The notes under the pieces: generated by a model | What the model was told of the DNA's origin: nothing | Database searches by the model: none | Seen by the model: only the letters and a program-made list of their open reading frames with translations | DNA from: a virus | Virus record (IMG/VR): IMGVR_UViG_3300021142_000014 | Location: 35,714 to 99,713 of that record | DNA length: 64,000 bases | Strand: one strand, 5' to 3' | Part shown: in pieces, positions 30,243 through 63,246 of the stretch | Numbering within the stretch: position 1 is the stretch's first letter | Layout: each line of letters starts with the position of its first letter | Translations under genes and position numbers: made by a program

Positions 30243-31541
30243 TCAGTATTTGATGATCTTGGTGACTACGGCATATGGCTGCATGATATTGTGGCCAGAG
30301 GCTGTCGTAGCGGTGTTTCCGCTGGTTGTAAGCCCCGTTTGGGCTGCTACAGATCCAGTAGAGCTTGGAACTGTAAAAGCAAGACCAGGAATAGATACGC
30401 TACCGGTAACTGCTTGAGAAGCAATAGAAAGAGATGGAATCGAAAGTGCAGGTATAGTAGCACCATTAACAGTGAGTGAAGGGATACTAACACTAACTCC
30501 AGATAGACTGTGGGAGTGACCAGAGTCACTGGCACTGACATTAATACCTGGAGCTACACTGCTAGTAGATTCTGAACTAATACGAGTTGATTGCACACCG
30601 CCTGCAGGCACTGCAGTACCAATATAGTAACTTCCAGTACTATTACCTGTTTCCCAAAAGCTTCCTGCTGTAGGAGTTATACCGTGGCTGTGAGCACTTT
30701 GGGAAGCACTTGCACCAATATTAGCAGCACCACTTCCTGTATTCCCAGAACTAATACTAGCACTACCTGCTACAGTAGTAGTTGAATTGGTAGTACCAGT
30801 TCCTGTAGATCCTGAACCAGTAGATCCACCGGCTGTATTCAAACTGACAGTATTGCTAGTTCCTGTTGAAGTAGAACCAGTATAACTAGGTACGGTAAAT
30901 GTACTAGAAGGCACCGTAAATGCGTGGGTGTGACTAACTAGAGGGGTTTCTCCAGATACCAGTACGTGAGTTTCTTCACCGCTATAAGTGGCTAAAGCTC
31001 TAAAGGTAAGCCCTGTGCCACTTCCTGCACCAATCGTTGTACGACCTCTAAGATCAGGTACGTTAAAACTAGATCCCGTTCCACCCCAAGTATAACTAAT
31101 GGCATTAAATAAACCGCTATATGTAGTTGTAGAATAACTAGATCCATCACATAGAAGATACCCAGACGGTGCAACAGGGCCAGCAAAATCAAGAAGCGTT
31201 CCTGCAGGTACTCCTCCTGTTGCTGCACTGCTCGGTAGAGGTGCTGTACTAATTACTTGATTTTTAGTTCTATCAAATGTTCCAGCATACAAAAATAATC
31301 TATAAAGACTAGTTCGTTTTTCTACCCACCAAACTTGATCTGTTTGCAATTGAGATAAAGTAACTCCAGGTGGCATGGCTTGTAGATCTATTTCTATTTG
31401 AAAACCTTTTGTATCTAATCCATAACATATATAATTCTGCGCTGCATTAGTAGCTGCACTGAATGGATGAAGTTGTGGTAAAGTAGTAATAGTTACTTTA
31501 ACAACACCTAAATTTTTATTATCTTGGATTCCTACACTCAT
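30243..31541 (-). CDS. Tail collar-domain protein (short-fibre-like)
   Basis: A 432-residue protein. After a unique N-terminal ~110 residues, AGTLLDFAGPVAPSGYLLCDG leads into SFNVPDLRGRTTIGAG, the phage Tail Collar signature, followed by HTHAFTVPSS and a long Gly/Ser/Thr-rich repeat region, ending HNIMQPYAVVTKIIKY as collar proteins do. Such domains occur in short tail fibres and microcystin-dependent-protein relatives. Its start overlaps the hub gene stop by 4 nt (ATGA). It probably forms a baseplate-attached fibre. Confidence 0.8.
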   Translation of the reverse strand: MSVGIQDNKNLGVVKVTITTLPQLHPFSAATNAAQNYICYGLDTKGFQIEIDLQAMPPGVTLSQLQTDQVWWVEKRTSLYRLFLYAGTFDRTKNQVISTAPLPSSAATGGVPAGTLLDFAGPVAPSGYLLCDGSSYSTTTYSGLFNAISYTWGGTGSSFNVPDLRGRTTIGAGSGTGLTFRALATYSGEETHVLVSGETPLVSHTHAFTVPSSTFTVPSYTGSTSTGTSNTVSLNTAGGSTGSGSTGTGTTNSTTTVAGSASISSGNTGSGAANIGASASQSAHSHGITPTAGSFWETGNSTGSYYIGTAVPAGGVQSTRISSESTSSVAPGINVSASDSGHSHSLSGVSVSIPSLTVNGATIPALSIPSLSIASQAVTGSVSIPGLAFTVPSSTGSVAAQTGLTTSGNTATTASGHNIMQPYAVVTKIIKY

Positions 31542-43540: not shown

Positions 43541-44253
43541 ATTACAGGTACGTTGTAATAAGGGCTACTAGGAAAAACGTTTTCTAGCGTAGCCATTTGA
43601 TTAACATAAATAGTATTATTGTAACTAATTCCTGGACCAGTACGAATGCTTTGTGGGGTAACTGCACTAACTTGAAAACGGTCTCCAAGTACAGTTGGTG
43701 TATCTTTGTACCATTCATTAACACGAACCACAAGATCACCCGTTCTTATCTCAGGAAACCAACTGAATTGAACAGTAGGATTATCTTTCCAGAATTGACC
43801 AGTACTTAGGTTAGAACGAATTTGTTGAGTATCAGCAGCAAGCATGTAAAGGTGATAACAGGTAGGTTTAAATCCACCACTGAATGTTGTTCCATAGCAA
43901 GTCCCGCAATAACTATTACCAGTTTGACGGTATACTTTGCTAACTCTTGATTGGATAGCAGCATTAGGTTGCGTTGGATTGGGGCTATCTTGGCATTGCT
44001 GGCAGTATCCTACAAGACCAAGGGCAGCATCCTCTGCACGCCATAATTGACGTACAATGCATTCTTCACCGAACCATTGAAGAGCTTCATCATGGAATCG
44101 CTGCTCATTAGTTTGAGTCCATCCTTCTTGTTGTTTTACAACAAGTAGAGGGCTTTCCTGTTGAGTAGAAAGACCATTCACTCCTGGTACGACAGGACCT
44201 GGTTGTGGATTGATACCGGACAAATTATGCTCCACCCATGTTGACTGCCGCAT
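43537..44253 (-). CDS. Neck/adaptor protein with Cys-rich motif (238 residues)
   Basis: The start at 44253 (MRQSTWVEHNLSGINPQPGP) overlaps the upstream gene by 29 nt. Two cysteine pairs (GYCQQCQDSPN and SYCGTCYGTTFSGGFKPTCY) occur near the middle, suggesting a zinc- or disulfide-stabilised module, followed by beta-rich sequence (GDLVVRVNEWYKDTP). I have an impression of similar CxxC-GT-F-GG proteins in the necks of large phages. Position between head-side and tail genes supports a head-tail joining role. Confidence 0.5.
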   Translation of the reverse strand: MRQSTWVEHNLSGINPQPGPVVPGVNGLSTQQESPLLVVKQQEGWTQTNEQRFHDEALQWFGEECIVRQLWRAEDAALGLVGYCQQCQDSPNPTQPNAAIQSRVSKVYRQTGNSYCGTCYGTTFSGGFKPTCYHLYMLAADTQQIRSNLSTGQFWKDNPTVQFSWFPEIRTGDLVVRVNEWYKDTPTVLGDRFQVSAVTPQSIRTGPGISYNNTIYVNQMATLENVFPSSPYYNVPVI

Positions 44254-45091
44254 ATTGGAAGTGAGGACGTGCTGGGTTAGTAAACATACGAGGGATAAGA
44301 CCACCAGCAACAAGAAGGCTTCTCTTGGAACCAACCATGAATTGACGTTTCATCTGACGGAGTTGCTTATCAGCTACTTCCTTGTCAAATAGATACAATT
44401 GCCACCAACGGTTGTAGTAATCTCTACGATCCATCCAGGCAGCATTCATGCCTGTTGGAGATGGTTGTTCAATATAGTTACGGGCAATATGTTTTAAAAA
44501 GTGAGCATACGTTTGACTTGCCAATACTCCATAATAAGTACTTGGATATGGAACTTGAGCATTTAGACCAATTTGATATGCTGGAGAAAATATAGGTTGA
44601 AATTCAAAGTTAATGTAGTCAATGGTTTCGTCTTGCATAACCATTGCAACTTCTTCGTACATCATAAAACCACTTTGTTGTAGTTCTTGAAGGTATGGTC
44701 CACCAGCAGTTGAGTCGAAGCTTTTGTCAAGTCTGTGTACAATACCAGTTACAATTTGACGTTCGTCATAACCTAAATTAGACCAATATGGCATCTGATC
44801 AGTAACAACAATGCTATCAACGTAGATTCTTGGACTTCCACTAATAGTATAATTCCAAGTTATATTGTAATTACCTTGAACAGATGTTTGATTGGCATTA
44901 AGCATGTACTGATATGTTCCAACGCTTTCATACGTTGCTACTGTGCCAGGAGCTACTACAACTGTGCCGTTGTCTGCATTGATTACGCTAAGTGTTACTA
45001 ATTGATTGTCAGGGTCAGTAAGAACACCTTGTGAGTAGGTCATAATGCCTACTGGCTCTACTGCATATTGTGGGAAGGGGCGTACTCTCAT
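44225..45091 (-). CDS. Head-tail neck protein with N-terminal Ig-like part (288 residues)
   Basis: It starts MRVRPFPQYAVEPVGIMTYS. Residues ~20-95 form an Ig-like beta sandwich pattern (VTLSVINADNGTVVVAPGTV, YQYMLNANQTSVQGNYNITW). Residues 100-285 are helical (GYDERQIVTGIVHRLDKSFD, YNRWWQLYLFDKEVADKQLR) and end basic. The layout suggests an adaptor plus surface domain in the neck. No family recognised with confidence. Confidence 0.5.
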   Translation of the reverse strand: MRVRPFPQYAVEPVGIMTYSQGVLTDPDNQLVTLSVINADNGTVVVAPGTVATYESVGTYQYMLNANQTSVQGNYNITWNYTISGSPRIYVDSIVVTDQMPYWSNLGYDERQIVTGIVHRLDKSFDSTAGGPYLQELQQSGFMMYEEVAMVMQDETIDYINFEFQPIFSPAYQIGLNAQVPYPSTYYGVLASQTYAHFLKHIARNYIEQPSPTGMNAAWMDRRDYYNRWWQLYLFDKEVADKQLRQMKRQFMVGSKRSLLVAGGLIPRMFTNPARPHFQYAAVNMGGA

Positions 45092-45103: not shown

Positions 45104-47581
45104 TTAAAATCCAATAGTTGCTGTGCCTTTTGGCCAACGAATCATAAGAAGACCAGATCCACCAGCTGAGGCGTTAACAGCATTAGGTCCTGCTCCTCCA
45201 CCACCTCCACCACCAGTGTTTGCAACTCCTGCAGTAGATTGTGTAATGCTGCTGCTGTTAGATGCTCCAGTACCACCACCACCGGCACCACCAACTCCAT
45301 TAGCACCAGCATTATTATTTGCTCCTCCACCACCTCCACCACCACCGTAGTAGCCAAATACACTAGTACTAGTTGCGGTTGCCCAAGCTGAATCAGTTAG
45401 GGTTATACCGGTTCCACCATTCTCTGTACCAGCTCCACTAGCTCCAGCTCCACCAACTCCACCACCTCCACCGCCCCAGTAGCTTGGTATATTTCCATAG
45501 CCAGAACCACCAGCGTAGATACCTGCTCCACCAGCATTATTATTTGCTCCTCCACCACCAGCGCCATTTGCACCAGTGTAAGCAGGAGCACTGGTACCAC
45601 CAGCGCTACCTCCGACAGCATTGTAGGCACCATATCCACCACCAAAACCTGTATAAAGAACAGCACCACCAGAGGGTTGAATAAGAGTTGCACCACCTGA
45701 GCCACCATTTGAGGAACTACCAGCAGCTCCACCAGCTCCAATAGTTATTGCATAAGGGTTAACAGACAATGTTGTAGCTGATTTTTGATATACTGCACCA
45801 GCTCCACCACCACCTCCTGGAACATAAACACCTGCAGATAGAGTCTTATATGCTCCACCTCCACCACCGCCTCCAACTAATACAAATTCTGCATTGTTAA
45901 GTGCTGATATAGAAACAGTAAATGAACCAGTTGAAGTCCAAACAGCATAATCGTAGGTACTGTCTGAGTAATGTGTTGCATTCGTAGCAGTAACATTAGG
46001 CAGTGGATTAGGAATAATACCTGTTCCAGTAGCGCTTGTTTGTGCGCCACCTGCGGTGATAGAAATAACTGTTGGTGTGTAAGTTATTCCCTTGGTGAAA
46101 GAGCCTGTGACAACTGCTGAGTTTGTTCCGTAAGCTACGCTTGTATAGAATGACGTTGAGTCAGATCCAACCATAAGAGCAACATATGTTGCTGGGGTTG
46201 TTCCAGATCCTGCAGGAGTCCATGAAATTGTTGTTGATGTGGTTGTTACAGAACTTGTTAATACACCGGTTACGGCGCTTGGAAGAGGGTTAGGGATAAT
46301 AGCAGTTGTAGTTGCTGATGTACTACTACCACCAGTGTTTTGAGCAACAACCGTTGGAGTGTATGATGCACCAGCTTGGAATACATTAGTATATGTAGTT
46401 CCATAAAGAGTAAAAGTTTTACTACCATTAAGGGTTGCAATGTTTGTAGCATATGGTACAGAAGTGCTAACTTGATCATATGGTGAAGAGCAAGTAAGAG
46501 CAACACTATAAGTAGTTGGTTGTGAATATTGAGTGTTAGCGGACGTTGGTGTCCAAGCCACCGTTGCACTAGAGTAACTAATAGATGAAGTATTTACACC
46601 TGTTACTGCTGCTGGTGGGTAAAGAAGATTTTGAGGTGTTCCTGGAGTACGGCCTATTGCATTATTAGCAATTACGTTAACTACAGCAACAGGTTCAATA
46701 GGATTAGTTATACCTGACATTGTATATGTTGTTGCTGACTGTGTAGAACTAGTAAATCCATTATTTGCATCAGAATATGTATAGTTATCAGCTAAACTAT
46801 GTAATGGATTAGTATCAACATTAGTAATTACAATGTTGATAAAACCATTATTACCAGATTTGGTAGCTGTAAAGGTTGGAGCAACCGTAGGAGCAGTCAA
46901 TGGGTTAGGAGTCAAAACAATATTTGCTCCACTGGCGCTCGTTCCAGCAAAATTTTGTGATTGAACATAAAACGTATATGGCATTCCTGTAAGAAATCCA
47001 TGGTTCATAAGACCTGTAACAGTTGGTGATGTGCCTGGTCCAGATATAGTTAAAGTTGCACTATCTTGTGTTGTTAAACCAGTTCCAATATTGGTAAGTG
47101 TTCCAGTGGCAGAAAGTATGTAACTTGCAGCATTTGGAACTTGAAGAAATGTATATTGAACTCCACTAAGAGACGTAATAACTACAGAAAGACCTGAAGG
47201 AGTTGCTGTAGCAATAAATGGTTCTACTTGGTTGCTTGCATTACCATATTTACTATTACCATACTTATTGCTTGCATATCCTTCAAATTGATAATAAGCA
47301 TTTGCAACAAATGGATAAGTAATTGTTAGTGGATTTGTAGCGCCTGTGATTGTGGTTCCACTAATAGCAACCAACGGTGACCCACTAAAAGCAGTCACTC
47401 CATAACTAGTCGCTGGATGACCCAATGGATTAGGTGTTAAATAAACGTTAACAACAGAATTATCTCCTGAAGTCGTTCCACCTGAAATAACTACGGCACC
47501 TGAGATGGTGTCAATGAATGGAGGCTGTGGTTGCAAGTGAGCCGACGCTTCCGAAGCAATGATCCCAGGAATAATAGGCAT
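45104..47581 (-). CDS. Fibronectin-repeat protein with poly-glycine adhesin domain
   Basis: An 825-residue protein. Residues ~10-560 contain about six fibronectin type III-like or Ig-like repeats, several sharing a PNPLPSAVTGV-type linker. Residues ~567-820 form a glycine-rich domain with repeated GGGGGGG runs (FVLVGGGGGGGAYKT, YGGGGGGGGANNNAG), ending GLLMIRWPKGTATIGF. Poly-glycine sandwich domains of this kind occur in receptor-binding tips such as phage S16 gp38. It is probably a host-recognition or cell-adhesion appendage. The C-terminus holds strong glycine codon bias, so ORFs in other frames here are shadows. Confidence 0.75.
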   Translation of the reverse strand: MPIIPGIIASEASAHLQPQPPFIDTISGAVVISGGTTSGDNSVVNVYLTPNPLGHPATSYGVTAFSGSPLVAISGTTITGATNPLTITYPFVANAYYQFEGYASNKYGNSKYGNASNQVEPFIATATPSGLSVVITSLSGVQYTFLQVPNAASYILSATGTLTNIGTGLTTQDSATLTISGPGTSPTVTGLMNHGFLTGMPYTFYVQSQNFAGTSASGANIVLTPNPLTAPTVAPTFTATKSGNNGFINIVITNVDTNPLHSLADNYTYSDANNGFTSSTQSATTYTMSGITNPIEPVAVVNVIANNAIGRTPGTPQNLLYPPAAVTGVNTSSISYSSATVAWTPTSANTQYSQPTTYSVALTCSSPYDQVSTSVPYATNIATLNGSKTFTLYGTTYTNVFQAGASYTPTVVAQNTGGSSTSATTTAIIPNPLPSAVTGVLTSSVTTTSTTISWTPAGSGTTPATYVALMVGSDSTSFYTSVAYGTNSAVVTGSFTKGITYTPTVISITAGGAQTSATGTGIIPNPLPNVTATNATHYSDSTYDYAVWTSTGSFTVSISALNNAEFVLVGGGGGGGAYKTLSAGVYVPGGGGGAGAVYQKSATTLSVNPYAITIGAGGAAGSSSNGGSGGATLIQPSGGAVLYTGFGGGYGAYNAVGGSAGGTSAPAYTGANGAGGGGANNNAGGAGIYAGGSGYGNIPSYWGGGGGGVGGAGASGAGTENGGTGITLTDSAWATATSTSVFGYYGGGGGGGGANNNAGANGVGGAGGGGTGASNSSSITQSTAGVANTGGGGGGGAGPNAVNASAGGSGLLMIRWPKGTATIGF

Positions 47582-47584
47582 AAT

Positions 47585-48334
47585 TTAAATTATGTCTCCG
47601 GTAACAACCCAAACATTTTGTGAACCAATTTGATTACCAATCCATATAGCAGTTGCAGTACTGTATATTTGTCGAAGTTGTGGGTTGTTACCATTATTTA
47701 AGGAACCTGTTGAAATAATAGTTGCTCCACCAGAGAAAGTTACAGTACCACTAGTCATTTGAATAAATGTAACTTGTTGTCCATAACCAATACCACTGGC
47801 AGGCAATTGGATAGCACAATTACCACTAATTTGAACAATGTTGTTAATGTCTGTAGAATTAGCAATATACGTTGCTGCCCCATAATTAGTATCCCAAATA
47901 TATTGAACTGATCCAGCGGGAATATAATTTGACCAATATGGCGCTGAGCTAGTTCCTGAAGCACTGGAAATAAAGAATTGACCACTAGCAGTAGGTGATG
48001 GAAAATCACCATTGTTTATCTGGTTTATAATACCAAAATCAGTGATGAGCGGACCAGCAACCCATGGAACAGTTCCACTAACACCAGTAGTTACAGGGCC
48101 AAACCCACCTTCTGCTTGGCGTTGTACAATAGCAACAGTAGATGTTCCGCTGCTTGTTACATAAATGATTTCTTGTGTTCCGGTAGCACCATAATATCCT
48201 GGATTAAGTACTACTGGGACGTATGTTCCAGCCACTGGTGTAGGCCAATTAGTACCGGTAATAGTGGTTTGACCACCATTAACAATACCAGAAGCAATGC
48301 CATAGGCAAAATCTAAACGAGAACGTGTTGCCAT
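47585..48334 (-). CDS. Tail-fibre-type protein (249 residues)
   Basis: It starts MATRSRLDFAYGIASGIVNG and has a PVVLNPGYYGATGTQEIIYV stretch, then a fibre-end pattern NNIVQISGNCAIQLPASGIG and GQQVTFIQMTSGTVTFSGGA typical of small beta domains in phage fibres. The C-terminus (NVWVVTGDII) matches endings of such modules. It precedes the poly-glycine adhesin gene by 3 nt, so both may assemble in one appendage. Confidence 0.6.
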   Translation of the reverse strand: MATRSRLDFAYGIASGIVNGGQTTITGTNWPTPVAGTYVPVVLNPGYYGATGTQEIIYVTSSGTSTVAIVQRQAEGGFGPVTTGVSGTVPWVAGPLITDFGIINQINNGDFPSPTASGQFFISSASGTSSAPYWSNYIPAGSVQYIWDTNYGAATYIANSTDINNIVQISGNCAIQLPASGIGYGQQVTFIQMTSGTVTFSGGATIISTGSLNNGNNPQLRQIYSTATAIWIGNQIGSQNVWVVTGDII

Positions 48335-49078: not shown

Positions 49079-51298
49079 TTAGGTAGGTACTACATCTTCC
49101 CCGAGGTTATTCACAGGCTCCGAATAGTCACCTGGCTGGTCATTTTCAGATGTGTACTCCCCAACAACGTCTGGGTTGTTAGGTGTAACATAGAAATTGA
49201 CCTCGTTGACTGGCTCAACCTTGGCAGATTCTACAGATCTTACATTCATTACTAGGCTGAGTCCATAGCGAACCAATCCGACTGTTGTGGCAATTGCTCT
49301 TCTAAGATAAGTTCTACCCTTGGTAGTACCAATTTCATAGCTAACCGTGGCAGTGGCGTATTTTTTACGGTTGTTTGCCTTGGTTACAGTAGCTGATACA
49401 CTCTGCAATACTGAAGCATTCTTATGTGTAACTTTTCCACCACTTACAACCTTACCAATGAATATAACAATATTCTTGGCAATTTTACGGTATGCATGGG
49501 ATTTGATATTAAAACTCAAATTAGTGGATAGAGTCTTGATAGAGGTAGCACGGCGTTTATTGGTTCTAGCAAGGTTTATTCTATTAGCGTTGGCATTCCT
49601 ATTGAACCTAGATAATTTAGTGGTTTTAATAAGCCCTGTAGTTCTAGCAATCGCATAACGATAGAATTGATCAATTTTTCCATCGAATGCAATATTAGTT
49701 GCAGTTACTTTAGCAACTCTAATGAACCTAGAAAATTTCCTGGTAGTAGCAAGATTAATGACTGCTGCCGTTGCTCTTCTTGTGAATCTAAATAATTTGT
49801 TATTTTTGGTTAACCCTGTGAATATAACTTTTATGTTCTTGCCATAGTTTTTGCTGACTTTAACGAGCATTGCACGGTTAGCTGTTGCGAGGCGTCTAGC
49901 TACGACAATTCTTGTTGCAATAGTAATGCCTACTTGGGTTGATTTAGCTACTCTAATAAATCTAGATTGTTTAGTAGTGGTAACCAAATTGGTTGTTCTA
50001 GCTATGGCATAACGGTAGAATCGATCGATCTTTCCATCTCGTGCTATGTTGATAACCATAGAAATGGCTTTTTTAAAAAGAACATTAATTCTATAAGAAT
50101 TTGCTATGTTGATAGCATTAGCTGAACCGGTTCTTATAAACCTACCAATTTTAATAGTTTTGACAATATTGATAGCTATAGCACGGACTCTGGCATTATA
50201 TGTCCTGCTACTCTTTACAAGAGACACCCTAGTAACGGTAACTAATTTGCTTCTAATGTTAGAATTTTTAGATGTAATAAGCGAAACTCTGGTGGCAAAC
50301 GCTTTTTTAAAATTATTGTAAGATTTTGCATTACGAATTAAGAACGTGGATTCAACTAATGCTTGTTTTATACGTTTGATTGTTTTATAGTTATTTGCTA
50401 TGTTTATGCTTGTTATAGTACTTGTTCTAAACCTATTAAAGGTTTTACTAGAATTTACTAGTCTGGTTGCAGTAGCGATAGCACTTCTGTAATATTGATC
50501 AAATGGCTTTAAACTATTTGCTAAAGAGGTTTGCAATGCCTTAGCAGTACGGGTGAATCTAGATCGTTTGACAATGATTACTGATTGTGTATAGGCAGCA
50601 ATCGCTTTTCTAAAGAATTGATCGATGCGGCCTTCGAATGCAAGGTTTACAAGATTAACTATAGAAATTCTAAAATGTCTTGTTATCTTAGTAACTTTTG
50701 CGTAACCAATGCTATTGGCAGTAACACGACGAATACCTGTAAAACGCTTGCTATTTCTTATAACACCAGTATAATTAGCTATTACATCTTTTAGTTTGGA
50801 TCTAATATATCTAGTAACGATAGCTGAGGTTTGTAGAGCAATGGCAAATCTTAATTGGATATAACTTTTTGAGGTTTTTGCTAAATTTGTAGACGTAGAT
50901 GAAGCTTGTTTAATTCTACCGATTTTTGACTGGTTATTAACCAATATTGTGGCCAAAGCGATGGCATTCTTAAAGTAATCAAGGTGCTTCTGGAATCCAT
51001 AACCACCTCTCCAACCAAGTTCATACGCTTCAGTATTGGGTGAATAGAATGCTCTAGTAAAGCTACTCTTAGGTCCTACATAAGGTGGTGGGACATGTGG
51101 ACCTTGACCACCTCTCCAACCTTCTGGTACTTTACCATTTTTGTTCGTGGCAAAATAACCAAATAGAATAGTCTTATAATTACTACTATATTCTGGCGGG
51201 TGTGGTCCACCCTCACCACCAGTCCAACCTTCAATAACCTTATTATTGGTTGAACGATACCCTCTAGTAATATTATTCTTGGGTTTTTTATTGGCCAT
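49079..51298 (-). CDS. Very basic protein with ~25 tandem ~20-residue repeats
   Basis: A 739-residue protein. Three N-terminal repeats of about 30 residues share GWRGG-type motifs (IEGWTGGEGGPHPPEY, PEGWRGGQGPHVPPPY, LGWRGGYGF). From ~110 to ~650 run roughly 25 repeats of 18-22 residues of the form R-F-x-R-x-A-x-A-x-x-x-N-I-A with Lys/Arg-rich turns (e.g. RFIRVAKVTATNIAFDGK). The alternating small/hydrophobic residues suggest a beta-solenoid or helical rod. The C-terminal ~40 residues are acidic. No ribosome binding site precedes the ATG. Likely an elongated appendage or DNA- or surface-binding protein; no family recognised. Confidence 0.7.
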   Translation of the reverse strand: MANKKPKNNITRGYRSTNNKVIEGWTGGEGGPHPPEYSSNYKTILFGYFATNKNGKVPEGWRGGQGPHVPPPYVGPKSSFTRAFYSPNTEAYELGWRGGYGFQKHLDYFKNAIALATILVNNQSKIGRIKQASSTSTNLAKTSKSYIQLRFAIALQTSAIVTRYIRSKLKDVIANYTGVIRNSKRFTGIRRVTANSIGYAKVTKITRHFRISIVNLVNLAFEGRIDQFFRKAIAAYTQSVIIVKRSRFTRTAKALQTSLANSLKPFDQYYRSAIATATRLVNSSKTFNRFRTSTITSINIANNYKTIKRIKQALVESTFLIRNAKSYNNFKKAFATRVSLITSKNSNIRSKLVTVTRVSLVKSSRTYNARVRAIAINIVKTIKIGRFIRTGSANAINIANSYRINVLFKKAISMVINIARDGKIDRFYRYAIARTTNLVTTTKQSRFIRVAKSTQVGITIATRIVVARRLATANRAMLVKVSKNYGKNIKVIFTGLTKNNKLFRFTRRATAAVINLATTRKFSRFIRVAKVTATNIAFDGKIDQFYRYAIARTTGLIKTTKLSRFNRNANANRINLARTNKRRATSIKTLSTNLSFNIKSHAYRKIAKNIVIFIGKVVSGGKVTHKNASVLQSVSATVTKANNRKKYATATVSYEIGTTKGRTYLRRAIATTVGLVRYGLSLVMNVRSVESAKVEPVNEVNFYVTPNNPDVVGEYTSENDQPGDYSEPVNNLGEDVVPT

Positions 51299-56897: not shown

Positions 56898-58049
56898 TTA
56901 TATCGCTGAGAATGGTCCTACAGTACTACCCTGGGTGGCACTTCCGCCAACCGGTGAATCAATGATACCAACACTAACATTACCAGTTGGAGCAGTCTGA
57001 TTACTAGACAAAGTTCCCAGAGATGTTACCAATGCAGAATCACTAAAGGCAGTTGCTGTAATATTGCTGTTAGTAGTAACGATTTGGATAGAGTTAATCT
57101 GAGCTGTTGTGCTATTTGAAGGTCCTTGTAGAACTCCTGTTGCAATTGTAGTGATTGTACCACCTACAGATTGTAGCAAGCTTAGCTGGTTATAGTACTG
57201 TGTTGTGTAGTTGGCTGTGTATCCAGCGCAAGCACCATATGACGAGCAAGAATACGATGTACATTGCGTAGCGTATCCTCCACAAGCTGTTCCATAACTT
57301 ATGCAGGGTGGGAAATACGGTGGAAAGAATGGTGGTGGGAAATACGGTGGAAAGAATGGTGGTGGGAAGTAAGGTGGGAAGAATGGAGGAAAGAATGGTG
57401 GAAAGAATGGTGGTGGGAAGTAAGGTGGGAAGAATGGAGGAAAGAATGGTGGAGGTGGTGGTGAGTAGCTAAGGTTGTTTGGTCTTGGAATTTCAACAGG
57501 TCGAGTATTTGGTGAATCTTCTTTTGTACGACGCTTTCGCTTAGGCAACGTTGTAGTTGCTCCCTTAGCATTTGGATCACCATAAGCACTGCTGTAACCA
57601 TAACCTGTGCAAACAGTGTAATAGCTTTGACACACTGGTCCATAGCCTGCGCATGTATAACCTGTGCAAGGATATCCACCAGTACAAGTATAGCTTGTTA
57701 TGTTATTTTGTGAGTAAGCATTGTTAACAACTGCCCACCAGTTACCAGTACTTGTCCACCAAAAAGCAATTCCAGTACCGTTTGAAGCACTCTTCAACGT
57801 CATTGTTGCGCTAGCTTTGTAAGGTATTGTAGCTAATGGGTAAGAACTAGCTGCTGTTGATGTAGTTGCTGATCCGCTTGTTGCATACCATACACCAGTT
57901 TGTGCAACCCAAAGTTGTCCACCTGGGACAGCTGTTCCTAATGATCCTGATGTTGTTCTTGCAAAAAGGTCACTAATAGGTGCTAAAGATCCTGATAGGA
58001 GCCCATAAGCACGGGCTGCAAGGTCACTTAGTGCTGAGAATAATGGCAT
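56898..58049 (-). CDS. Jelly-roll fibre protein interrupted by Pro/Tyr/Cys-rich insert
   Basis: A 383-residue protein. Residues 25-110 (SDLFARTTSGSLGTAVPGGQ, LWVAQTGVWYATSG, GIAFWWTSTGNWWAVV) and 285-383 (YYNQLSLLQSVGGTITTIAT, ITATAFSDSALVTSLG) look like the two halves of one laminin-G/concanavalin-like beta sandwich. The insert holds a Cys/Tyr/Gly-rich block (119-152: YTCTGGYPCTGYTCAGYG), a KRKRR basic patch, about 50 residues of PPFFPPYFPP-type repeats (197-248) and a second Cys/Tyr block (249-280). Probably a receptor-binding appendage whose insert forms a rigid, disulfide-tied knob. Possibly a substrate of the nearby hydroxylases (inference). Confidence 0.65.
   Translation of the reverse strand: MPLFSALSDLAARAYGLLSGSLAPISDLFARTTSGSLGTAVPGGQLWVAQTGVWYATSGSATTSTAASSYPLATIPYKASATMTLKSASNGTGIAFWWTSTGNWWAVVNNAYSQNNITSYTCTGGYPCTGYTCAGYGPVCQSYYTVCTGYGYSSAYGDPNAKGATTTLPKRKRRTKEDSPNTRPVEIPRPNNLSYSPPPPPFFPPFFPPYFPPPFFPPFFPPFFPPYFPPPFFPPYFPPPFFPPYFPPCISYGTACGGYATQCTSYSCSSYGACAGYTANYTTQYYNQLSLLQSVGGTITTIATGVLQGPSNSTTAQINSIQIVTTNSNITATAFSDSALVTSLGTLSSNQTAPTGNVSVGIIDSPVGGSATQGSTVGPFSAI
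57308..57458 (-). repeat. Tandem repeats coding PPFFPPYFPP units
   Basis: About 150 bp of near-identical short units (GGTGGGAAATACGGTGGAAAG and variants, each with AATGGT) run inside the fibre gene, coding for repeating Pro-Pro-Phe/Tyr-Phe. Unit boundaries differ in small insertions and G/A changes, suggesting slippage-driven length variation. Confidence 0.8.
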
Positions 58050-58074: not shown

Positions 58075-61000
58075 TTAGAACTTAGTCTGTCCGAGTAGCA
58101 TAACATACGTATTAGCTGCTGTACATATTAATGTAATAGCATAAAAGTCATAGTTTACTGTTGCATCTGCAGCAGTCCATATTGAACCACCCTGGTAATA
58201 CGCTGTTACGGTGTAAGTGTTAGTATATGCTGTTCCATGGGCAGGTAGCGTAGTACCACCGTTAACAGTGTAACCATTGATCGTAAACCCTGATGGGAGA
58301 TAGGCTGTAGAACCATTATTTGTACCAACAGTGACAGTAACGGCTTGACCAACAGTAGTTGGAGCATTGGTTATTTGGATTTGCCATGCTGATGTTGGAG
58401 CAGCAGTGTAGACATAGACTCCACCAGAAACGGTGTTGAGAACAGCAGCAGCGCTTGAAGATACTACACCAGAACTAACTACAACCTGTTCTAGAGGCGC
58501 TACTAGCAATGGGTTAGTAGCATAAGGGATAACCCCACCAGTACCAGTTGTACCGCTTACAACAGGACCTGAGACCCACTGAGAACCACTATAGATAAGC
58601 ATTGCATTGGCAGTAGGTGCACCGCTTGATACTGTGTAACCTTGTAGTTTAGTTACTTTTGCATTACCTATTGTACCAGTAAGATCTCCACCGACTGCAG
58701 AACCACTGGTCATTACAGCAGAACCACTTACGGTAACAGCTCCACTGAATGAAACGTTACCTATTTGTGTACTTGTTCCTGATACTGTAAATCCACTGGC
58801 TACAACAACGTTTCCACCACTAGTAATTGTCATTGCATCATTAGCTGCATTATTAGTTACAAAGTGTATAGCATTGTTGCCATAAGTACCAATAGCTAGA
58901 TCTGTAGAGGCTGAAGCAAGGTAAACAGCACCTGCAATGTTAAATGCACCATTACCAGTAAAGTTACTGGAGTTCATACCAAACTCACCGTAGTTAGTAC
59001 CACTTGTTCCCAAGTTATTACTTACGTTTAGGTTAGTACTTGCAGATGTACCAGAGTTGGTATTTTGAACAATAACTTGGTTATAGTTGTTAACACTATT
59101 GTTAAAACCAGCCATGATGTTAACGTCAGAGTATGAAAGTCCTCCACCGAAGTTGATTGGTGGGTTAGTAGTAGGCGTGGTAGCGTTGATTGTGTAATTA
59201 ACGTTTAGAGCACCAGAAATAGTTTCTGTACCAGTTATGCTAACGTTTCCATTAACATTGAATGGACTATTAACATTCAAAGTACCGGTAACGGTTCCTC
59301 CACTAAGTGGAAGCTTGTTAGCATCACTACCAGAAAGTGTTACTACTTGCCCTGATAAAGTTGCAATGCTGCTTGTGTTAGTAGTTACATTACCTGAAGT
59401 AGTTGCATATTGACCACTAAGGGTTGCGTATTGTCCGCTAAGGTTTGCAACATTGGTATTAGTAGTATTTAGGTTACCACTAGTTGTGTTGTATGATCCT
59501 GAAAGGGTTACAAACTGTCCAGAAAGGGTTGCAAGCGATCCACTAGTAGCAGCAATGTTACTATTTGCTGTAACCATTTGCCCTGATAGCGTTGCAATAC
59601 TGCTTGTGTTAGTAGTTACAATACCACTTGTTGATACGTACTGGCCTGAAAGAGTAGCAAGGCTACCACTAGTAGCAGCAATATTAGCATTTGCTGTAAC
59701 CATTTGACCTGATAGGGTAGAAATGCTACTTGTATTAGTGGTTACAATTCCTGAGGTTGTAGCGTATTGACCACTAAGTGTTGCAAGGTTGCTATTGGTT
59801 GTAGTTATTGAACCACTCAGTGCTAACAAGTCTCCAGAAAGATTAGTAACTTGATTTTCTGCAATTTGTATACCACTAGTTGTAATGTTGCTTATACGAC
59901 CATAGCCATCTGTAGTAATAATTGAAACATTATTGTTTGAACCATAAGTACCTGATGTACCTATAGTTGCAAGATCAATGCTATCTGGGTTAACAACAAT
60001 TCTACTTGAGTTTGCAGTGACAACATCAATTGTATTACCAGTTTTGGTAAGACCACCACCAGCATTAATTTCTCCAGCACCTGAGAATTGTGAAAATTGA
60101 ATAGTATCAGTACCAATAACAATGTCACCATTGGGACCAGTACCTGCAGAGGCCATAATATATCCATTATTAGCATTTACTGTACCGCTCTGTACGAATA
60201 TAAAATCACCAGCAGTTACTTGACCACTAATTGAATCATTGTAATCAGATGCACGAGTTAGTTTCCAAGGAATTGATGAACTACCTGTAACTGTAACTAC
60301 ATAAACACCATTTTGGGTTCCTGTAGTTTGGTCTTTAACTAGAATACGAGCACCACTAACAAATCCACTAGCTGCTATAGAATCTATTGCAAACCCAGCA
60401 TTAGTGGTTGAAGTTAGAGTAGCTCCAATGCCGTAACCACCATCTTGGTCTATTGTTCCACCACTGTATGTAGCTGTAAGGTTGCCTGTGGTTCCAGCAA
60501 ATGCAGGAGCGTGTACGTTGAGCTGTGCAACTGCAGCATCTACATATTGCTTGTTAGCTAACTCGTAAGTACCTGTAGGAAATGTTGGGTAGTAAGTAAG
60601 TCCAGAAAAAGTTGTGGTGCCTGTAAAAGTTTTAATACCACTAATAGTTTGTGTTGTTCCTAGAGTTACTGTGCTACCGCTAAGAGTAGCAAGATTAGAG
60701 TTAGTTGTATTTAAGCTACCACTAATTGAAGCAATATTTGATTCATCGGTAACTTGTTTTCCAGAGATTGTTGCTATGTTAGTTGTATTAGTAGAAATAG
60801 TTCCACTAAGTGCAGTGGAGATTGTTGGGTTAGGGTAAGTACCTTGGAGGTCACCACCGGCTGTTACGCCACTTATACTAGTAAGAACATTTATTCCACT
60901 TACAGTAAGAGTACCTGGAACATTAACATTGTGGTTGGCAGTACCTAAAACAATTTGATCTTGTGTAGAAGAAGTAGCACCAGCACCAGTGTGATCTGTA

Positions 61001-63246
61001 CCAATAGCAACAGATCCAGGTGCAGTTGCATTGGTTTGGTAACCAATTGCTGTAGCATAATTGCTACCAGTATTATTAATATTGGCTAGATAACCAATTG
61101 ATACACCAAATTCATTGTAATAATAACCGGCTTCATAACCAATAGCTACACCATCAAAATTTTGAGTAGAACCAGCATAAGCACCAATAGCTACACCATT
61201 ATTGTTACTAGATTGACCAGCATAGTTACCAATAGCTACACCAGCAGAATTGACGCTGGATATGGGAGTGTTAGCTCCTAGTGCAATATTAGTAGAATTT
61301 ACAGAAAGTGTACCAGTAACAGTTAAGTTACCAGAAATAGTACCACCTGTTCTTGGAAGAGCAGCGTAAGCTACTCCAGAAACTGTAACTAAGCTACCAC
61401 TAATTGAAGCAATATTTGATTCATCGGTAACTTGTTTTCCAGAGATTGTTGCTATGTAACTTGCTTGATTGGTAACGATACCAGAAGTGGTAGCGTATTG
61501 TCCTGAAAGCGTGGCAATGTTTGCTTCATCAGTGACTTGTTTTCCGCTTATTGTAGCTATGTAACTAGTATTATTAGTAACAATCCCTGAAGTTGTAACG
61601 TATTGACCTGATAGTGTAGCAATATTAGAAGCATCTGTAGCTTGCTTGCCAGATACACTAGCAATGTTTCCAGATATGCTAGTCATATCTGTTACTAGGT
61701 TATTTACTTGACTTTCAGCAATCTGGATTGTGTAAAGTTGTGCGTTAGTAACACGACCATTTGAATCGATAGAAAGCAATGGAGTTTGTGTAGCAGATCC
61801 ATAAGTACCACTAACACCACTAATTGTTCTAAGAGTTGGGTTAGGGTATGTCCCAGTTAAATCTCCACCAGCAGTTGTGCCAGAAAAGATTGTTCTTCCT
61901 GAAGTAGTTACAAATTGACCACTTAGAGTAACAAGAGATCCTGAGAGTGAAGCAATATTAGCTTCGTCAGTTACTTGCTTTCCACTAATAGTAGCAACAC
62001 TTCCTGATAATGTAGAGAGGTTTGAAGCGTTAGTTGAGATACCGTTATTAGCAGTGATCATTTGACCACTAAGTGTGGCAATATATCCAGTTTGGTTGGT
62101 TACAATACCTGACGTAGTATTGTATGAGCCAGAAAGTGATGCGAATTGACCACTAAGATTGGCAACATTAGAGTTAGTTGTAACTAAGTTACCTGAAAGA
62201 GTTACGTATTGACCAGAAAGTGTGGCGATGTTATTTGCTTCAGTAGCAAGAGTATTGGCTTGACCACTAACTACTACATTGAGTCCTGATATTTGTGTAT
62301 TTACACTAGCGAACCCTGAGTCTGTAGTAGTCGATAGATTATCTATTCTTGTACTTAAACCACTAACTTGAGTGTTTAAAGAATTAATGTTTGTAGTTTG
62401 ACCACTAACAGTAGAATTTAGAGTAGAAATACTTACAGATTGACCACTAGTTGTTACAAATAATGCATTGATTTGCCCACTCTGTGTATTAATTTGCCCA
62501 CTCTGTGTATTAATTTGCCCACTCTGTGTATTAATTTGCCCACTCTGTGTATTGATGTTTGTACCATTAGTGTTAATTTGGGTCTGTAAACCACTAATAG
62601 TTGTATTTAATCCACTTACTGCACTTGTTAGAATAAATATATTAATACCTGAAACATTGGTTATACGACCAGCATTATCCCATGAAAATGTTGGCAAGAA
62701 GCTTCCGCCACCACCAGAGAACGTGTCGCCAGTGTATATTGCTTTAAGTGTTGGATTAGGATAAGTACCAGCAAGGTCTCCACCAGCAGCTGTGCCTGAT
62801 ACTACTAAGGTTGAATTGCCAATTATGCTTGTTGCAAGGTTAAATTGAGCTTGTTCAATAGCTGTAGCAACAGGAAAAACATTATAATCGCTAGAAGATC
62901 CTACTGAGTGCGAAGTTGCAGTTGTTCCGTCATAGCCACGGCCATTGGTACCACTAACGTTATAAACAAAAATAGTGGTATTAACACCAAGTGAGATGGC
63001 ACCGCTAGCACACAGTATCTTTTCTTCGCTGCCTAGACCGTAATCTACAACAAGCGTAAAAGGTCCACTAGTTCCTAGTGGATTAGTGGTATTATATCCG
63101 CCTGCGCTAACTTCATACCATCCCGTGGTATTAGCTACAGTTATTGTTTGTCCGCTTGCGAATGCATAGTTAAGCGATGCTGAAAGATACGTAGGTGCAG
63201 CACCACCAGGGTATGATCGTATTACACTGGAATCTGGGAGGGCCAT
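58075..63246 (-). CDS. Giant tail fibre (1723 residues) with repeat and YadA-like regions
   Basis: It starts MALPDSSVIRSYPGGAAPTY. Four copies of a GGDLxGTYPNPT-type motif (near 155, 462, 800 and 1520) separate long heptad-like stretches of ATLSGQ/TTSGIVTNNTS repeats, which should form trimeric coiled coils. Around residues 665-765 repeats such as GVAIGAYAGS and VSIGYLANINN match the YadA-head-type beta roll. The C-terminal ~300 residues are beta-rich. These features make it a long trimeric tail fibre for host binding. A perfect 21-bp tandem repeat codes INTQSGQ units near residues 231-258. No peptidase or intramolecular chaperone domain was seen. Confidence 0.8.
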   Translation of the reverse strand: MALPDSSVIRSYPGGAAPTYLSASLNYAFASGQTITVANTTGWYEVSAGGYNTTNPLGTSGPFTLVVDYGLGSEEKILCASGAISLGVNTTIFVYNVSGTNGRGYDGTTATSHSVGSSSDYNVFPVATAIEQAQFNLATSIIGNSTLVVSGTAAGGDLAGTYPNPTLKAIYTGDTFSGGGGSFLPTFSWDNAGRITNVSGINIFILTSAVSGLNTTISGLQTQINTNGTNINTQSGQINTQSGQINTQSGQINTQSGQINALFVTTSGQSVSISTLNSTVSGQTTNINSLNTQVSGLSTRIDNLSTTTDSGFASVNTQISGLNVVVSGQANTLATEANNIATLSGQYVTLSGNLVTTNSNVANLSGQFASLSGSYNTTSGIVTNQTGYIATLSGQMITANNGISTNASNLSTLSGSVATISGKQVTDEANIASLSGSLVTLSGQFVTTSGRTIFSGTTAGGDLTGTYPNPTLRTISGVSGTYGSATQTPLLSIDSNGRVTNAQLYTIQIAESQVNNLVTDMTSISGNIASVSGKQATDASNIATLSGQYVTTSGIVTNNTSYIATISGKQVTDEANIATLSGQYATTSGIVTNQASYIATISGKQVTDESNIASISGSLVTVSGVAYAALPRTGGTISGNLTVTGTLSVNSTNIALGANTPISSVNSAGVAIGNYAGQSSNNNGVAIGAYAGSTQNFDGVAIGYEAGYYYNEFGVSIGYLANINNTGSNYATAIGYQTNATAPGSVAIGTDHTGAGATSSTQDQIVLGTANHNVNVPGTLTVSGINVLTSISGVTAGGDLQGTYPNPTISTALSGTISTNTTNIATISGKQVTDESNIASISGSLNTTNSNLATLSGSTVTLGTTQTISGIKTFTGTTTFSGLTYYPTFPTGTYELANKQYVDAAVAQLNVHAPAFAGTTGNLTATYSGGTIDQDGGYGIGATLTSTTNAGFAIDSIAASGFVSGARILVKDQTTGTQNGVYVVTVTGSSSIPWKLTRASDYNDSISGQVTAGDFIFVQSGTVNANNGYIMASAGTGPNGDIVIGTDTIQFSQFSGAGEINAGGGLTKTGNTIDVVTANSSRIVVNPDSIDLATIGTSGTYGSNNNVSIITTDGYGRISNITTSGIQIAENQVTNLSGDLLALSGSITTTNSNLATLSGQYATTSGIVTTNTSSISTLSGQMVTANANIAATSGSLATLSGQYVSTSGIVTTNTSSIATLSGQMVTANSNIAATSGSLATLSGQFVTLSGSYNTTSGNLNTTNTNVANLSGQYATLSGQYATTSGNVTTNTSSIATLSGQVVTLSGSDANKLPLSGGTVTGTLNVNSPFNVNGNVSITGTETISGALNVNYTINATTPTTNPPINFGGGLSYSDVNIMAGFNNSVNNYNQVIVQNTNSGTSASTNLNVSNNLGTSGTNYGEFGMNSSNFTGNGAFNIAGAVYLASASTDLAIGTYGNNAIHFVTNNAANDAMTITSGGNVVVASGFTVSGTSTQIGNVSFSGAVTVSGSAVMTSGSAVGGDLTGTIGNAKVTKLQGYTVSSGAPTANAMLIYSGSQWVSGPVVSGTTGTGGVIPYATNPLLVAPLEQVVVSSGVVSSSAAAVLNTVSGGVYVYTAAPTSAWQIQITNAPTTVGQAVTVTVGTNNGSTAYLPSGFTINGYTVNGGTTLPAHGTAYTNTYTVTAYYQGGSIWTAADATVNYDFYAITLICTAANTYVMLLGQTKF
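62471..62554 (-). repeat. Four tandem 21-bp repeats in the fibre gene
   Basis: Four consecutive copies of a 21-bp unit (ATTTGCCCACTCTGTGTATT plus A) code INTQSGQ on the minus strand. The copies are identical except the last base of the fourth. Each unit equals one heptad, so copy-number change would lengthen or shorten the coiled-coil shaft in register. Confidence 0.95.

Follow-up and report, generated by a model that had tools for sequence, protein, structure and literature searches.

A modular stalk with a glycine-rich tip: a probable host-recognition protein of a contractile-tailed virus

What is the role of a glycine-rich protein encoded between the lysin-like and connector genes of an environmental virus, and could its tip be a head that recognises the host? 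The question arises from an original prediction, made from the letters of the sequence, of a fibronectin-type stalk carrying a poly-glycine domain reminiscent of T-even adhesin tips, with variable loops that may define host range. The window (the whole stretch of DNA analysed, 64,000 nucleotides) forms the final 64 kb of virus record IMGVR_UViG_3300021142_000014, which is 99,713 bases long. Its sheath, connector and polymerase share ~25-37% identity with their counterparts in Rhodococcus phages E3 and Finch, Gordonia phage Skog, and mycobacteriophages such as Myrna and Alice, making it a distant relative of this myovirus group; this identity to phages of actinobacteria, taken by itself, suggests an actinobacterial host.

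The gene at 45104-47581 is real, with one intact ORF of 825 aa (hereafter the adhesin, in a putative sense) at exactly these coordinates, and its strand is here corrected to minus. Its expected place between neck and lysin genes also stands: the ORF list and family profiles put an NlpC/P60-CHAP-like (lysin) gene and a 249-aa gene on its upstream side; downstream come a phrog_2791 gene and then the connector/sheath block (Table 1). With a gap of 3 bases between the 249-aa gene and the adhesin start, and of 12 bases between the adhesin end and the next gene, the adhesin belongs to a single closely packed series of structural genes. Where related loci have no adhesin, the connector gene is directly preceded by a gene whose start, as judged by eye, resembles that of the 249-aa gene. 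A near-identical contig (L001) carries one extra C at window position 46840, its sole difference over 13,135 bases, which would end the adhesin after 253 residues and is either an assembly error or real.

Table 1. Positions in the window of the adhesin gene, the parts of its product and its immediate neighbours
Feature	Residues	Position	Strand	Basis or remark
249-aa neighbour gene, upstream of and separate from the adhesin		47585..48334	minus	ORF list
Adhesin gene, whole	825 aa	45104..47581	minus	single intact ORF
Leader, MPIIPGIIAS..	1-25	47507..47581	minus	L002 and L009 proteins begin similarly
Stalk module 1, Ig/Fn3-sized	26-123	47213..47506	minus	no family match
Stalk module 2	124-227	46901..47212	minus	Fn3 via L002 counterpart only (E 0.012)
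Stalk module 3	228-322	46616..46900	minus	no convincing family match
Stalk module 4	323-430	46292..46615	minus	weak fn3 match (E 0.0064); paralogous to module 5
Stalk module 5	431-530	45992..46291	minus	weak fn3, E 0.004
Glycine-rich tip, Gly_rich_2	531-825	45107..45991	minus	profile match, A6 alignment, predicted fold
phrog_2791 gene, downstream neighbour		44225..45091	minus	neck/connector by position only

Elsewhere in the window, positions 49079-51298 encode a 739-aa protein with basic repeats following a start motif like RGY(R/Y)S.N.KV.EG(W/Y)RG, which recurs by eye in related loci at the head of proteins ranging strongly in size, from 87 to 739 aa. Two further genes encode a 383-aa protein with a Pro/Phe repeat (FFPPYFPP..) between Cys-rich stretches (56898-58049) and a fibre-like protein of 1723 aa that contains (S)GQ repeats and weakly matches YadA heads and tail needles (58075-63246).

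The C-terminal region, expected to be a domain of ~250 residues with many runs of seven or eight glycines, is indeed glycine-rich, but spans about 280-295 residues and holds three such runs, at residues 570, 746 and 790. Glycine accounts for 93 of the 279 residues from 547 to 825 (33%) versus 8.8% of the remaining protein, and five runs of at least five glycines were observed, whereas shuffling these residues 10,000 times gives an expected 0.73 (P = 0.0002). As its glycine codons are mixed (GGT 55, GGA 31, GGC 7), the tip is not a DNA triplet repeat. Pfam family Gly_rich_2 (PF21722) matches residues 549-816 with 64.7 bits (cut-off 24.3) over profile positions 1-225 of 226, and phrog_2295, a family of unknown function, matches most of the protein. 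With low-complexity filtering, tblastn of the full protein gave 0 matches at 1e-5 in 50,697 phage records; when an alignment of three Gly domains was used to search viral contigs, 600 stretches fitted a pattern, 0 of which tblastn confirmed; and a sequence search of solved structures returned chance-level matches only, for example to a fusion-protein linker.

The DNA pattern of the first glycine run occurs at no fewer than 80 loci. When 63 ORFs were drawn from loci matching this pattern and joined to that of the window, 56 of the 64 matched Gly_rich_2 and 50 matched phrog_2295; since the sample was picked by its glycine pattern, these rates show only that the pattern finds the Gly_rich_2 family. 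Stalk-type partners were rare among the 64 (LamG in two, collagen in two, fn3 in one), and many of the PHROG families matched are tail-fibre, tail-collar or minor-tail families. A family search found PF21722 in at least six of 31 related records, a lower bound because it missed one locus (L018) that scores 36.9 bits on a direct scan; phrog_2295 was found in four of the 31. The Gly_rich_2 domain is very common in phages, and the adhesin is one more protein of a widespread type. In an alignment of 23 Gly domains (A6), 16 glycine blocks have a mean entropy of 0.60 bits versus 2.42 bits outside the blocks, and the segments between them vary in sequence as well as in length (0-38 residues), so the loops between the glycine strands are variable, as anticipated. 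Tails C-terminal of the Gly domain in L002 (7890-7989), L010, L011 and L025 resemble the domain's own first strands, possibly through strand swapping or as the remnant of a tandem domain. A reading of the L002 tail as a repeat scar was dropped on finding that tails like it close or connect domains in 10 of the 28 rows compared, one pair among them identical, and thus belong to the Gly-domain family.

Prediction of the Gly domain with AlphaFold2 from alignment A6 gave a model with pLDDT 78.8 and pTM 0.84, weakest at model residues 121-170 and 201-220. Among solved structures Foldseek ranked the tail tip of Bxb1 first (1.5e-5), followed by the Pam3 fibre (1.9e-4) and then by ALK/LTK at 0.02 and above. 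Superposition with VIA-align gave Z 15.0 for chain Q of the Bxb1 tail tip (3.0 Å over 183 residues, 30% identity) and 14.8 and 14.0 for the Pam3 fibre (PDB 7YPX, 7YFW), compared with 6.2-8.4 for ALK/LTK, while unrelated cupins reached no more than 4.4. BFVD returned 214 matches at 1e-3; among those listed, most were phage 'glycine-rich domain-containing' proteins and one, likewise from a phage, bore the name Fibronectin type III. That the region is instead a low-complexity, disordered glycine tail with neither fold nor function is very improbable: a poor model from a two-sequence alignment (below) would be in keeping with it, yet the model from a diverse alignment is confident, the glycine blocks are conserved across 23 sequences, and the glycine runs are clustered and their codons mixed.

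The tip is predicted to be a TNF-like sandwich with glycine-rich loops of the Bxb1/Pam3 type. Bxb1 gp33 and gp29, Pam3 gp24, S16 gp38 and ALK have been described as glycine-rich polyproline-II bundles (PMC13243192), and chain Q of the Bxb1 structure (PDB 9D93) would correspond to the gp33 brush domain of that work. In the model the poly-glycine reading holds, given the match to solved phage glycine-bundle domains (Bxb1, Pam3), on a TNF-like scaffold as in Pam3; kinship with T-even gp38 is not supported. Poly-glycine runs and variable segments are shared with S16 gp38 (PMC6851490), but a true gp38-type adhesin with a beta-helix scaffold is extremely improbable: family matches at E <= 1 comprised Gly_rich_2 and weak fn3, with none to a gp38 family; no sequence relative was found among solved structures; no gp37-like gene was recognised beside the adhesin in the ORF list or the profile search of its neighbours; and the structural matches are led by Bxb1 and Pam3, although the absence of S16 gp38 (6F45) from those listed carries no weight in itself. 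The leading match to the Bxb1 tail tip raises another reading, in which the tip binds lipid-rich envelopes non-specifically and has no single receptor, as proposed for the brush and poly-glycine domains of mycobacteriophages (PMC13243795, PMC13252515). That the nearest named phages infect actinobacteria would suit such a function; lipid contact is, however, itself only a proposal in those papers, and strong divergence toward the tip suggests specificity, so that we regard this reading as rather unlikely.

In front of the tip lies a repeat stalk, as predicted, although of five modules (95-108 residues each) rather than about six, two to three of them recognisably Fn3. The Fn3 identity stands in part: in the window only modules 4 and 5 match Pfam fn3 (PF00041), weakly and below the curated cut-off, whereas no family is a good match for modules 1 and 3. 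The L002 homologue has fn3 matches in its modules 2, 4 and 5, that of module 5 above the cut-off (E 3.9e-6). Module 4 is clearly paralogous to module 5 (z about 19), and the remaining modules show weak similarity. A full-length AlphaFold2 model from a two-sequence alignment reached pLDDT 32 (module 5 mostly 50-70) and, at that pLDDT, has no N-terminal helix; with a model this poor, five Ig/Fn3-like domains are a reading of the sequence. The conserved leader is the probable attachment end. Pairing of Fn3 with a glycine-rich domain in a phage protein is not described in the titles and abstract openings found; in view of the BFVD match named Fibronectin type III, the pairing is not claimed as new.

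Comparison with L002, the nearest relative and the only other lineage found with the adhesin at the same gene position (seven contigs, identical over the stretch compared), reveals how unevenly the protein has diverged. Amino-acid identity is 84% in the leader (21/25), 67% in module 1 (66/98) and module 2 (70/104), 48% in module 3 (45/93), 40% in module 4 (38/94) and 29% in module 5 (28/95), while most neighbouring genes retain 89-98%. In the tip 82/194 positions are identical, or 30/110 at columns without glycine, and the L002 tip gave no Gly_rich_2 match at E 0.1. Along the adhesin dN climbs from 0.21 to 0.93 toward the tip with dS at about 0.8-1.6 throughout, a comparison limited by saturation and by poor alignment at the tip; the connector gene has a dN of 0.086 and a dS of 1.16. 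Upstream, dS is 1.07 in the 249-aa gene, 0.54 in the lysin and 0.07-0.15 in two genes far upstream, and this sharp change (0.07 to 0.54-1.1) points to a recombination boundary near 49 kb; as dS approaches saturation, recombination and fast divergence within the adhesin are indistinguishable. Two closer pairs of Gly proteins at other loci have dN/dS of 0.23 and 0.21, purifying on average, which speaks against strong positive selection overall. The loops may set host range, as suggested, but these two pairs are constrained on average, although dN rises steeply toward the tip between the window and L002.

In 8/29 loci from two lineages, a count that includes the window's own phage (L001), a Gly-rich gene separates the connector from the 249-aa gene or from the gene corresponding to it. 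Ten of the 29 have a Gly-rich ORF elsewhere upstream (L009-L012, L018-L021, L025 and L028), and 11 have none in the stretch compared, some of those stretches being incomplete. Stalks differ among loci: collagen-like in L019, a short start in L009, and a short RIDKVLMPLVTTFA anchor in the Gly proteins of L010-L012 and L028. Gly_rich_2 occurs in two of the five named phages: in Myrna it lies both ahead of the connector (gp113) and within the tail block, in Skog within the tail block; none was found in E3, Finch or Alice.

Gene position can also be taken to indicate a capsid or neck decoration, sitting on the head or collar and making the particle weakly and generally sticky, toward polymers or cell surfaces, in place of binding a specific receptor. 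The adhesin gene precedes the connector and sheath genes, a separate tail-collar-type gene occupies the baseplate block (30243-31541), and the interval before the connector holds Myrna gp111 and Alice gp107, annotated as head decoration. In E3, however, this interval also includes genes labelled tail fibre, and in Myrna Gly-rich genes that match minor-tail PHROGs, all gene labels in the named phages being annotation only, and by fold the Gly domain matches domains of tail tips and tail fibres; a decorative role is a real possibility, if not the expected one. More speculative, and rather unlikely, is that the pre-connector block in these Ceeclamvirinae relatives is a cassette that moves glycine-bundle tips among Fn3-like, collagen-like and short-anchor stalks and among positions, such that brush-type tips would be displayed from the head or neck, not from the tail tip.

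Our best explanation is that the adhesin is probably a virion-attached host-recognition protein, attached at the head, neck or tail. The leader and first two modules would fix it to the particle, the five Ig/Fn3-sized modules, recognised partly from sequence, would form the stalk, and the C-terminal Gly_rich_2 domain would act as the binding head, modelled as a TNF-like beta-sandwich whose long loops are packed glycine helices. By analogy with Pam3, PP01 gp38 and Bxb1, the variable segments at the ends of these helices are likely to contact the host envelope, and, since divergence is faster in the distal half than at the base, the distal half could retune adsorption. A 2026 paper calls the spread of such glycine-bundle domains among phages an interesting problem (PMC13243795). 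The present model ties Gly_rich_2 and phrog_2295, for which the libraries state no function, to the solved Bxb1 and Pam3 tips; if this is true, the Gly_rich_2 profile can mark host-attachment tips in uncultured phages. For the adhesin gene alone, the result is ordinary.

Among known systems, Bxb1 is a siphovirus of mycobacteria. Chain Q of its tail tip has a fold like that of the Gly domain, whereas in the adhesin a stalk of five modules bears the tip, and the phage has a sheath (contractile tail). Fibre gp24 of cyanophage Pam3 joins a TNF-like to a glycine-rich domain, as in the adhesin model, and its variable distal tip is proposed to bind the receptor (PMC9608196); in Pam3 the N-terminus forms a helical trimer domain and the fibre has a chaperone, whereas the adhesin has Fn3-like modules and flanking genes that matched no chaperone family in profile searches. 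Glycine helices with variable loops in gp38 of Salmonella phage S16 and PP01 work as the adhesin tip would (PMC6851490, PMC12892980), but on a beta-helix scaffold attached to gp37, with no sequence link to the adhesin found. The TG domain of ALK/LTK is similar in fold to the tip; belonging to an animal receptor and matching at middling Z, it may share the arrangement only. The Gly_rich_2 and phrog_2295 profiles cover the full adhesin tip, in families whose stalk varies from member to member.
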